In this document: piece after piece, positions 14,990-52,543 of the stretch
Layout of the letters: each line of letters starts with the position of its first letter
How positions within the stretch are numbered: position 1 is the stretch's first letter
Assembly (NCBI GenBank): GCA_029866125.1
Contig: JARWZZ010000004.1
Coordinates: 124,001 to 188,000, forward strand
Source of the DNA: Limnobacter sp.
Lineage (GTDB): Bacteria; Pseudomonadota; Gammaproteobacteria; Burkholderiales; Burkholderiaceae_B
Reading direction: 5' to 3'
Length of the DNA stretch: 64,000 nucleotides
Translations under genes and position numbers: made by a program
The notes under the pieces: model-generated
What the model was told of the DNA's origin: nothing
Database searches by the model: none
What the model saw: only the letters and a program-made list of their open reading frames with translations

Positions 14990-15211
14990 ATGGCGACCGG
15001 CACCGTTAAGTGGTTCAATGATGCCAAAGGATTTGGCTTTATTACACCTGATTCAGGAAGTGAAGAGTTGTTTGCTCATTTCTCTGCAATTCAGTCCAAT
15101 GGTTTTCGTTCTTTGAAGGAAGGCCAAAAAGTCACATTCGATATCGTCGAAGGACCCAAGGGTAAACAAGCACAAAATATTTGTCCGGTTGAAGCAACAA
15201 GCGCAGCCTGA
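14990..15211 (+). CDS. Cold-shock domain protein (CspA family)
   Basis: Small single-strand nucleic-acid-binding OB-fold protein acting as an RNA chaperone. RNP1 is GFGFITPD (about residues 15-22) and RNP2-like LFAHFSAI is at about 27-34, after the conserved GTVKWFND start. The length of 73 aa is typical for betaproteobacterial Csp proteins. A strong Shine-Dalgarno (AAGGAGG) lies about 9 bp before the ATG. The probable long, structured 5' leader fits cold-inducible control, though that is not proven by sequence. Confidence 0.95.
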
Positions 15212-15266: not shown

Positions 15267-15296
15267 AAAAGCCAGCTCTCAAAAGCTGGCTTTTTT
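15267..15296 (+). terminator. Rho-independent terminator after the cold-shock gene
   Basis: AAAAGCCAGCT pairs with AGCTGGCTTTT around a CTCAAA loop, followed by a run of six T. It lies 55 bp past the cold-shock stop codon and rules out using the most upstream start codon of the following kinase frame. Confidence 0.9.
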
Positions 15297-15413: not shown

Positions 15414-17546
15414 ATGTTCACATTCAATTCGGTGCAGACAACCTTGCAAAACTCAGTACCAAACACCTCCATAACTGACACAATCCCCAGCGCGCTGCAA
15501 ACCTTGCTGCCGCATGGTTTTTGCATCAACTGGAACCCTACCCTGCTGGCCATGCATGTAGGGTCAGACGCGTTGATTGCATTGGCCTATTTCTCCATTC
15601 CAATCAGTTTGATTTGGATCAGCCGCAGGCTTTCCCTGGGCAAGCTGCAGAACTTTTATTACCTGTTTGCCACTTTTATTCTGGCATGCGGCGTCACTCA
15701 TGTGTTTGGAATTCTGACGCTTTGGACCCCAATGTACATGTACCAAGGCTATGCAAAAGTATTCACCGCCGTGGTGTCCATCATCACTGCGGGTTACATG
15801 ATTCCCAAGTTAAAAACAGTGCTGTCACTTCCCAACCTGGACGACCTGATTCAGCTCAATGCAAACCTGCAAGCTCAAATCAGTAACAATGAGAAAATTC
15901 AAATCGAGTTGCGCGACTCTGTAAAAAAGGCGCTGGAAGCCCAACAAACCCAAGCACAATTTTTGGCCAACATGAGCCATGAAATACGCACCCCGATGAA
16001 CGGGGTTGTGGGGGCCACAGCGCTGCTGTTGGACACGCAGATGTCTGAGGTGCAGCATTCCCTGACCAACACGGTCAGGGCCAGTGCAAACTCGCTTCTG
16101 AAGCTGCTTAATGACATTCTGGACATCTCCAAGGTTGAAAGCGGGCTGATGACCTTGTCCATGTCCGAGTTTGAATTGGCGGAGCTTTTCGAAGAAGTAA
16201 ACCAAAGTTTTGGCATTGAGGCTGACAGGAAAAATATTGAATTGGTGTGCCCTATCAAGCCCGTACAGGGGCTGCACATTGAGTCTGATTTTCTAAGACT
16301 CAAGCAGATTGTTTTCAATTTGGTGGGCAATGCAATCAAGTTCACAGACAAAGGGTGCGTCACGCTGGAATGTGAGGTCTTACCCAACCCGGCAGACAGC
16401 GACCGAGGCCTTCTGAACCTCAAAATTAGGGACACCGGTACCGGTATTCCAAAAGAGGCACTCGGCACTGTGTTTGATCGATTTAAACAGGCCAGTCACT
16501 ATTTGGACTCGCGCAATCGCGGCGGCACAGGCTTGGGTTTGGCAATTGTGCGGGAATTGATTCACCTGATGGGCGGGAACATCCAACTGCGCAGTGAGCT
16601 GGGTGTGGGTACCGAAGTTGAGTTGTCGATTCCAGTCAAAATCGATGCCCAAACCAAGGACAAAGCCCCGCAGGCAGAAAAAGAACAAGGGAGCATACTA
16701 ATCCACATCATCGCCACGACGCCTGATGTCAAACAGTCGCTTCTCAATTACCTCAGTATCCTCAATTGCACCCCTGTGCATGACTTGGATGACTTTTTAG
16801 AACGCTGCACCGTCAATATTGCCACCGACGCAACCAGCCCTACCGCTTCCCAAATCAACAAGGCAGTACCTATTTTGGTGCTGGACTACGGGAAATCGCT
16901 CAAGGACCTGAGCCAATCTGACAGTGTGGTTAATCTGGTTCAGTCGGGCAAATTGGATTTACTTACCATTCGATCTGTTAGCCATGAACGTGAGGATTCG
17001 ATTGAGGTGGAACGGCTTCGAACCCATTCCATCTTCCGACCTATTTCCTTCAAGAAAATTCAGGATCTTCTGGACAACCTGAAAAGTGGATTGCCAAGCG
17101 GTCGATCGAATACGGTAGGTGGGTTTTCTGGGCAGGCAGCATTAAGCGGCAAGGTGCTTTTGGTGGAGGATTCGATTGTCAGCCAAAAAATTGTGAAACT
17201 GGCATTGGAAAAACGCGGGCTTACTGTGATCACCGCCAACAACGGAGAAGAAGCAATCCACTACTTGAGAGGCAACACTGCCGATTTGGTGCTGATGGAC
17301 GGTCAAATGCCAATAATAGACGGCTACCAAGCCACCGCGATGATTCGTGAAGGCCAAGTGGGCGAGGTAAACCAAAACCTGACCATTGTTGCTTTAACTG
17401 CCCATGCGATGGAAGGCGAGAAAGAGCGGTGCTTGAAATTGGGAATGAATGATTTTTTGATCAAGCCGCTGGATTTGGACCACTTGGACCAAATACTGAA
17501 AAGGTATTTGAAGCAGAACGACCTAGGGAAACAAGCGCTTCCCTAG
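15414..17546 (+). CDS. Hybrid histidine kinase with an ethylene-receptor-like (ETR1-type) membrane sensor
   Basis: Predicted sensor kinase of 710 aa. Three N-terminal transmembrane helices (about residues 42-135) match the ethylene-binding domain of plant ETR1. The residues matching ETR1 Asp25, Tyr32, Ile62, Cys65 and His69 are all present here as Asp52, Tyr59, Ile89, Cys92 and His96, in ALAYFSIP and ACGVTH. Cys and His are the Cu(I) ligands in the plant receptor. A coiled coil (140-180) leads directly to the HisKA domain (SHEIRTPMNG, His189) with no GAF or PAS domain, then a HATPase domain with a GGTGLGLAI box. A degenerate receiver-like region follows, then a true receiver (about 579-705, Asp629, Lys684). 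The start at 15414 has a GAGGGGG ribosome-binding site; frames from 15264 would begin inside the terminator. Confidence 0.92.
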   Translation: MFTFNSVQTTLQNSVPNTSITDTIPSALQTLLPHGFCINWNPTLLAMHVGSDALIALAYFSIPISLIWISRRLSLGKLQNFYYLFATFILACGVTHVFGILTLWTPMYMYQGYAKVFTAVVSIITAGYMIPKLKTVLSLPNLDDLIQLNANLQAQISNNEKIQIELRDSVKKALEAQQTQAQFLANMSHEIRTPMNGVVGATALLLDTQMSEVQHSLTNTVRASANSLLKLLNDILDISKVESGLMTLSMSEFELAELFEEVNQSFGIEADRKNIELVCPIKPVQGLHIESDFLRLKQIVFNLVGNAIKFTDKGCVTLECEVLPNPADSDRGLLNLKIRDTGTGIPKEALGTVFDRFKQASHYLDSRNRGGTGLGLAIVRELIHLMGGNIQLRSELGVGTEVELSIPVKIDAQTKDKAPQAEKEQGSILIHIIATTPDVKQSLLNYLSILNCTPVHDLDDFLERCTVNIATDATSPTASQINKAVPILVLDYGKSLKDLSQSDSVVNLVQSGKLDLLTIRSVSHEREDSIEVERLRTHSIFRPISFKKIQDLLDNLKSGLPSGRSNTVGGFSGQAALSGKVLLVEDSIVSQKIVKLALEKRGLTVITANNGEEAIHYLRGNTADLVLMDGQMPIIDGYQATAMIREGQVGEVNQNLTIVALTAHAMEGEKERCLKLGMNDFLIKPLDLDHLDQILKRYLKQNDLGKQALP

Positions 17547-51390: not shown

Positions 51391-51501
51391 TGCCGCTTAG
51401 CGCTGCTTAGTATTTGCTTTGTGCGGTATCAAACAGACTGTAAGTTGGAGGTATTTCAGGATGGTGGACGGAATTTTCCGAAAATCACACCTGGAGCTGA
51501 A

Positions 51502-51906
51502 ATGCTAAACCAAAAAGAAATAAAACGCCTGCGCGTTATTTGCCATGTACCACTGCTGGCCTTGTGCCTTTCCTCTGCTGCATGGGCACAAAATATGACA
51601 CCAAACCCTGCTACCACAATGCCTGCAAGCAAGGCGGCGACGCAGGGTGCCAAAGAACAGCAGGATATGAAAAACTCCATGATGACCAATCACATGGATA
51701 AAATGAATCAAATGACTATGTCTGGTGACGTGGACAAAGACTTCGCCAGCATGATGAAAATGCACCACCAACATGGCGTTGAAATGGCGCAGATGCACCT
51801 GAAAAACGGTAAATCACCCGAAATGAAGAAGATGGCCAAGCAAATCATCGCCTCGCAGAACAAAGAGATTTCTCAGATTGACGCATGGCTGTCCAAGCAA
51901 AAGTGA
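51502..51906 (+). CDS. DUF305 family exported protein
   Basis: Exported protein of 134 aa with a signal peptide (about residues 9-31, LLALCLSSAAWAQ) and a ferritin-like DUF305 region. DFASMMKMHHQHGVEMAQM holds the family's paired histidines, followed by KKMAKQIIASQNKEISQID. The region between signal and domain is Met/Thr/Ala-rich, and the domain is strikingly Met- and His-rich, suggesting metal contact (inference). The start at 51502 follows GGAG; frames from 51421 add unconserved sequence. A terminator follows. Confidence 0.87.
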   Translation: MLNQKEIKRLRVICHVPLLALCLSSAAWAQNMTPNPATTMPASKAATQGAKEQQDMKNSMMTNHMDKMNQMTMSGDVDKDFASMMKMHHQHGVEMAQMHLKNGKSPEMKKMAKQIIASQNKEISQIDAWLSKQK

Positions 51907-52123: not shown

Positions 52124-52188
52124 CACAAACAAAAAAACCAACCGCAAGGGTTGGTTTTTTTGTTTGTATGGTGGAGCCGGCGGGAATC
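52124..52188. repeat. ssrA 3' end and terminator, native copy
   Basis: This copy overlaps the 3' terminus of the functional tmRNA gene (52169-52188) and its terminator stem CCAACC/GGTTGG (52139-52155). It is the partner of 51941-52005. Confidence 0.85.
52133..52162 (-). terminator. Terminator of ssrA
   Basis: AAAAACCAACC and GGTTGGTTTTT pair around GCAAG, with A and T runs on each side. It lies immediately beyond the CCA end of the tmRNA. Confidence 0.88.
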
Positions 52189-52543
52189 GAACCCGCGTCC
52201 GCAAATCCTCCACATGCAGTTCTACGTGTGTAGTCACCTTATTTGGTTTTAACAGTCCGTGTCGTGAAGGAACACACTACACTTACCGCGAGTCACTTAG
52301 TTTAGCCAGCTGTAACGTGACCGTACTGCAAGCGATCTGATATGCGATGATCCCGCAGCGGTTTTGACACCGCCCAGCCTATCAGCAAGCTGTTGCAGGA
52401 GAGTAGCTGACCGCTTACGCGGCCAGGGCTACTTCAAACGATGAGTCGTTTGCGTTTAAAGTTTTTCAGATGGATTTACGAGGTAACTGATCCTCGACAC
52501 GCCCTACAAGCTTCGCAATCCACGTCGAAACCAGATCGGCCCC
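52169..52543 (-). ncRNA. ssrA: Transfer-messenger RNA (one-piece)
   Basis: tmRNA of about 375 nt that rescues stalled ribosomes. The 5' end GGGGCCG pairs with CGGCTCC just before the encoded CCA, forming the acceptor stem. The D-like start CTGGTTTCGACG and the T-arm GGTTCGATTCC are present. The tag reading frame (52453 down to 52415) encodes ANDSSFEVALAA followed by TAA, ending in the ALAA degradation signal. It is read toward the left, with its terminator at 52133-52162. Its 3' end is duplicated 183 bp downstream. Confidence 0.96.

Follow-up and report, generated by a model that had tools for sequence, protein, structure and literature searches.

The question raised by this locus is whether a hybrid histidine kinase of the free-living betaproteobacterium Limnobacter sp. 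is a receptor for ethylene and, if so, how its membrane sensor acts on the kinase behind it. Ethylene-binding domains in many proteobacteria, joined to outputs absent from plants, are already in print (PMC7700396). A 2026 review describes the passage of the signal from the membrane domain to the cytoplasmic domains as an open question, and a high-resolution structure of the ethylene domain as lacking (PMC13012798). The window, as the whole stretch of 64,000 nucleotides analysed is called here, carries the gene as a single frame with no internal stop, with the following features:

15414..17546, plus strand: hybrid histidine kinase with an N-terminal ethylene-binding domain, 710 residues (open frame and Pfam)
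Upstream of the kinase start, plus strand: AGAGGGGG (read by eye)
15510..15533, plus strand: PHGFCINW motif, residues 33-40, before helix 1 and outside the Pfam match, kept in relatives
15543..15830, plus strand: ETR1_N ethylene-binding domain, residues 44-139, containing D52, Y59, I62, P63, I89, C92, H96 and K115 (Pfam)
15951..16145, plus strand: HisKA, residues 180-244, with H189 within SHEIRTP (Pfam and sequence)
16287..16640, plus strand: HATPase_c, residues 292-409 (Pfam and sequence)
16695..17087, plus strand: degenerate receiver-like domain, residues 428-558 (AlphaFold2 fold, no Pfam match of its own)
17154..17498, plus strand: receiver, residues 581-695, with D629 in LVLMDGQMP and K684 in LIKP (Pfam and sequence)

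An earlier sequence-only reading of this DNA had proposed a profile search as a check on its assignment of the sensor, and this search found ETR1_N well above the curated cut-off (98 bits against 27, E 4e-28, profile positions 2-97 of 97). There were 0 matches to ETR1_N in 14 control genomes, so the match in the window is not due to chance. The protein is a hybrid histidine kinase: HisKA, HATPase_c and the receiver, which that reading had also placed after the sensor, are all matched by Pfam, each with its signature residues, and the kinase signatures SHEIRTP, NLVGNAIKF, DTGTG and GTGLGLAI are intact. The best 25 of 153 NCBIfam matches to the protein, headed by BarA, were all under their cut-offs. 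Neither GAF nor PAS was matched in the kinase by Pfam at E 0.01, and a GAF domain of the plant type is absent between sensor and kinase. Residues 428-558, which had been overlooked, are modelled with strands alternating with helices as in a receiver. Because the first of these strands is without the acidic pair and the last without the usual lysine (by eye), this stretch is probably a second receiver, degenerate and inactive; the homologue from Limnobacter litoralis (L061) shows two Pfam receiver stretches.

The five residues to which ethylene and copper binding had been attributed (D52, Y59, I89, C92 and H96) are all present at the positions first given for them. All seven residues counted as essential for ethylene binding are kept, the other two being I35 and P36 of ETR1, equivalent to I62 and P63 here, and the helix-3 lysine, K115, is kept as well. 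The count of seven comes from published work, as does the site of AzoEtr1 from Azospirillum brasilense, formed by D35, C75, H79 and K98 with 19 residues from H79 to K98 (PMC11819568). The spacing of D52, C92, H96 and K115 is the same throughout, with 19 residues from H96 to K115, whereas in plant ETR1 the stretch from H69 to K91 has 22 residues, three more than in the window protein (PMC11819568). Residues 1-130 of AzoEtr1 bind labelled ethylene in yeast (PMC11819568). All seven residues are kept in 94 of the 144 bacterial ethylene domains sampled (161 loci, less three without a row, three identical rows and 11 rows with fewer than 100 aligned positions), so tuning to ethylene need not extend to the whole family.

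Among characterized systems, AzoEtr1 shares with the window protein an ethylene domain with the same D-C-H-K residues, a kinase output and the absence of GAF; AzoEtr1 itself binds ethylene, whereas binding by the window protein is presumed (PMC11819568). The two differ in that AzoEtr1 consists of ethylene domain, PAS and kinase, with no receiver and with a response regulator gene directly downstream (PMC11819568), whereas the window protein has no PAS but its own receiver and the degenerate second one. SynEtr1 (slr1212) of Synechocystis and GeiEtr1 and GeiEtr2 of Geitlerinema likewise have an ethylene domain, one cysteine before helix 1 and a histidine kinase, but all three contain GAF, SynEtr1 and GeiEtr2 also contain PAS, and SynEtr1 is in addition a light sensor (PMC6682694). 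Plant ETR1 is also of the hybrid type, with ethylene domain, kinase and receiver, but it has a GAF domain and two N-terminal cysteines rather than one (PMC6682694 for the cysteines), and it acts through CTR1 (PMC7700396). Proteins from Bradyrhizobium (L099), Bradyrhizobiaceae (L108), Tardiphaga (L123) and Pseudanabaena (L084) resemble the window protein in having a receiver and, between sensor and kinase, no Pfam match to GAF or PAS. Their linkers differ in length from that of the window protein, the first three have another phospho-acceptor motif and L084 carries its own Hpt.

The sequence-only reading is borne out where it describes a betaproteobacterial hybrid kinase with an ETR1-type domain and no GAF, but the GAF-less form is not the unusual feature that it was taken to be. 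GAF was found in 0 of 30 ethylene-domain proteins scanned with Pfam (the window protein and 29 of 80 matching loci, found by conserved patterns and including only two cyanobacteria), and AzoEtr1 is also without it. PAS was matched in seven of these proteins (L065, L066, L067, L107, L113, L115 and L129). Fourteen of the 30 (the window protein, nine from Limnobacter, L084, L099, L108 and L123) have the order ethylene domain, HisKA, HATPase and receiver without PAS or GAF, so that a hybrid lacking GAF is no rarity among the ethylene-domain proteins of proteobacteria. Other loci carry other arrangements. A Spirulina subsalsa protein (L121, 5998-7743) combines the ethylene domain with a methyl-accepting chemotaxis signalling domain and is a candidate ethylene chemoreceptor, and a 398-residue protein (L090, 5998-7191) has the ethylene domain and no further Pfam match at E 0.01. 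At further loci (L033, L034, L141, L176, L180 and others) the ethylene domain is degenerate, with one copper ligand or both gone; some of the genomes concerned also carry intact copies, and the degenerate domains may be decoys or sensors of something else.

The PHGxC motif before helix 1 follows the copper ligands. Of the 124 domains with C92 and H96, 122 also have both H34 and C37, against 3 of the 12 in which a ligand is missing; these 136 domains are the sample of 144 less eight with an unaligned N-terminus, and the Limnobacter rows as well as many related rows from cyanobacteria are part of them. In the same 12 ligand-deficient domains, H34 remains in six and C37 in seven, G35 in 10 and W40 in 11, whereas P63 is kept in three, I89 in four, G112 in four and T118 in five. 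The motif thus accompanies the copper ligands but not specifically, and general decay may explain the link, since several other residues of the site drop as much or more. A single cysteine before helix 1 has been described for cyanobacteria and proposed to form a disulfide (PMC6682694). No mention of a histidine at this place was found in the accessible parts of the ethylene-receptor literature, and one may exist.

Two AlphaFold2 models were obtained, one of the sensor (137 residues, 36 rows, mean pLDDT 88.2, with a poor N-terminus at ten-residue means of 51 and 66) and one of the full-length protein (21 rows, mean pLDDT 78.5). Three helices of membrane length are predicted in both, with the putative copper ligands in the second:

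15537..15629, plus strand: predicted membrane helix 1, residues 42-72 (AlphaFold2 models)
15639..15725, plus strand: predicted membrane helix 2, residues 76-104, with the putative copper ligands C92 and H96 (AlphaFold2 models)
15735..15827, plus strand: predicted membrane helix 3, residues 108-138, with K115 (AlphaFold2 models)
15837..16031, plus strand: continuous predicted helix from sensor to kinase, residues 142-206, including the phospho-acceptor H189 (full-length model)

Solved structures gave no match in sequence searches with the sensor domain alone (E up to 1) or with a profile (E up to 10), and a fold search with the sensor model gave none at 0.001 among the best 50 of 180 matches (E 10 or better). 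The helix of residues 142-206 is modelled as running into the HisKA region and through H189. This prediction, together with the heptad-spaced linkers of relatives, supports the direct coiled-coil coupling that had been proposed. In all 10 Limnobacter proteins tested, the phospho-histidine lies 97 residues after the copper cysteine. This Cys-to-His distance was obtained for 114 loci and is 150 or less in 52, which form 19 clusters of equal distance and 60% identity. Seventeen of these short-linker clusters occupy three of the seven heptad registers, with five at remainder 1 modulo 7 (distances of 92, 106 and 113), seven at remainder 3 (101, 108, 115, 122 and 129) and five at remainder 6 (all 97); remainders 0 and 5 have one each. 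Compared with lengths drawn uniformly at random from 88-140, the p value is 0.007 for the 19 clusters; for the distinct lengths, of which there are 11, it is 0.015. When periods of 3-12 were tested on these 11 lengths, only 7 stood out (p 0.017, uncorrected). The linker sequences are related and were chosen by a pattern that requires HGxC; as the clusters are not independent, this result is support rather than proof. In engineered photoreceptor kinases, a change in linker length can reverse the response, and the reversed variants are spread over several registers, unlike those of YF1 (PMC11164954).

On one side of the kinase gene lie ClpS/ClpA-like and cold-shock genes, and on the other side FKBP and isocitrate dehydrogenase-like genes. 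The following features are directly upstream:

14990..15211, plus strand: cold-shock-domain gene (Pfam CSD, E 5e-31)
Near 15270-15296: terminator-like hairpin between the cold-shock gene and the kinase (by eye, not listed by the hairpin scan)

The six flanking genes tested with Pfam (ClpA-like, ClpS, cold-shock, FKBP, isocitrate dehydrogenase-like and DUF192) include no response regulator. In 10 Limnobacter loci searched with the window's other open frames of at least 90 residues, none turned up near the receptor (at least half of the query aligned, flanks of up to 6 kb per side, shorter in L059). In seven Limnobacter loci, a convergent stand-alone HPt gene lies directly past the receptor (the one tested matches Pfam Hpt at E 1.6e-10). 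This HPt matches 13 of the 16 Limnobacter genomes at E 0.001. The match is strong (E 1.7e-23 or better) in nine, each time 1266-1715 bases from the ethylene domain; the remaining matches are weak (29% identity or less) and lie elsewhere in the genome. Judged by the strong matches, this HPt is thus present in 9 of 12 receptor-bearing genomes against 0 of 4 receptor-less ones (Fisher p 0.019, in a test that treats related genomes as independent). The window's own genome (G000), G002 and G003, all with the receptor, have no orthologue of this HPt. Six Hpt matches were found in the window's genome, one of them a stand-alone protein of 120 residues encoded about 88 kb from the receptor on the same contig, next to genes resembling flhB and a chemoreceptor (by eye). 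This protein was considered as the orthologue of the relatives' HPt and rejected, there being no match between the two. Other neighbours were seen in some relatives. In L056 (1074-5947), two NMT1-type binding proteins flank a 905-residue HAMP-PAS hybrid kinase directly upstream of the receptor, an arrangement also found in L055, L058 and L062, and in L060 with one binding protein. In L. litoralis (L061, 8091-9830), a second hybrid-kinase-like gene lies directly downstream of the receptor, in the position of the relatives' HPt.

The best named match to the window sensor is Limnobacter humi (71% identity over the sensor), the next nine being Limnobacter or Burkholderiales MAGs, and the ethylene domain is present in 12 of 16 Limnobacter genomes; the four without it are 85, 65, 91 and 96% complete. 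In the family Burkholderiaceae, nine of the 151 genomes sampled have a match at E 0.001, and the seven over the cut-off are all Limnobacter; among the 43 genera sampled it stands alone over the cut-off, one other genus having partial matches below it. ETR1_N is matched in 14 of 274 genomes of the class (10 over the cut-off), 23 of 299 of the phylum (all over it) and 45 of 146 cyanobacterial genomes (44 over it). In a tree of 69 domains, the eight Limnobacter rows form one group with weak support (91/23), this group and one uncultured gammaproteobacterium are joined at 100/98, and the window domain pairs with that of L. humi at 100/99, all from few columns. The patchy spread suggests, by inference, transfer of the domain into the genus, from a source that a tree with few columns cannot show. 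ACC deaminase was considered as a sign of an ethylene-related lifestyle and rejected, because the weak matches in 14 of 16 Limnobacter genomes were all under the cut-off and similar ones occurred in 6 of 14 controls. Among the listed matches of a literature search for Limnobacter and ethylene, no receptor is reported in a title or at the start of an abstract.

From likeness of site and layout, the window protein is probably a bacterial ethylene receptor of the same kind as SynEtr1 and AzoEtr1, dependent on copper and signalling by phosphorelay. In a presumed dimer, C92 and H96 of membrane helix 2 would coordinate Cu(I). This copper would bind ethylene, and D52 and K115 would help to relay the change to helix 3, the role of K115 and the lysine-aspartate contact being taken over from published models. 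From helix 3, the change would pass along the long coiled-coil helix to the HisKA helices, with no GAF or PAS as a relay, and would shift the kinase-phosphatase balance at H189, in a direction that can only be presumed. Phosphate would then move from H189 to D629 of the receiver, to an HPt protein (a presumed partner in the window strain) and to a separate response regulator.

The same site could be read as a Cu(I) sensor, with C92 and H96 reporting periplasmic or membrane copper and ethylene incidental. The company kept by H34 and C37 with the copper ligands (122 of 124 domains against 3 of 12) would fit such a sensor, as would a DUF305 gene at 51421-51906 (E 2.5e-16), a family that includes copper-binding proteins, although this gene is 34 kb away. 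We nevertheless consider copper sensing unlikely: none of D52, Y59, I62, P63 and I89, considered necessary for ethylene binding by ETR1, has been lost, and the six flanking genes tested with Pfam include no recognised copper-handling family (the other window genes were read by eye). The copper dissociation constant of ETR1, near 1e-15 M (PMC6586836), also fits a cofactor better than a signal. It is rather unlikely that the fold serves another unsaturated or pi-acceptor gas, such as carbon monoxide, propene or acetylene, or redox or light. Cu(I) sites do bind several small ligands of this type, and the single family tested, ACC deaminase, gave no sign of ethylene metabolism. SynEtr1 also responds to UV-A light (PMC6682694), but its light sensing has been ascribed to GAF (PMC7700396), which is missing here, and the full set of seven ethylene residues argues against this whole group of signals.

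A working kinase on which the ethylene domain is a relic, a mere membrane anchor, seems very improbable. The window copy does sit on a long end branch (0.62 against a median of 0.29), and its gene lies away from the neighbourhood and the HPt gene of most relatives. Against this, its seven residues, the lysine and PHGxC have persisted despite a divergence of 29-41% from the ethylene domains of four other Limnobacter, and all are also kept in its sister copy from L. humi (L012).

Ethylene receptors in bacteria were known already; what stands out in this one is the unusually direct predicted link of sensor to kinase and, in most close relatives, the adjacent HPt gene, a likely relay partner. Because no folded domain separates sensor from kinase and relatives carry the HPt beside the receptor, the system is a simpler test bed than ETR1, and it extends likely ethylene sensing to the Burkholderiaceae. 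A broader proposal, put forward tentatively and with more doubt than confidence, is that bacteria have a class of minimal ethylene receptors whose copper-ethylene membrane bundle acts directly on the kinase by way of a coiled coil with a fixed register. Selection would have fixed the three registers, which could stand for responses of opposite sign (ethylene-on and ethylene-off), in the way that linker shifts act in engineered photoreceptor kinases; Limnobacter, at register 97, would have the simplest natural ethylene phosphorelay, with a dedicated HPt, and PHGxC would be a copper entry or extra ligand site, replaced in plants by the cysteine pair. The ethylene that such a relay would report may reach Limnobacter from algae or from photochemistry.

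Two further features were observed in this genome. The only Rfam match in the window is a tmRNA gene on the minus strand at 52169-52543 (211.6 bits), far from the kinase. On another stretch of the same genome (L248, 6996-8099), a glycine- and threonine-rich protein of near-identical repeats is encoded.
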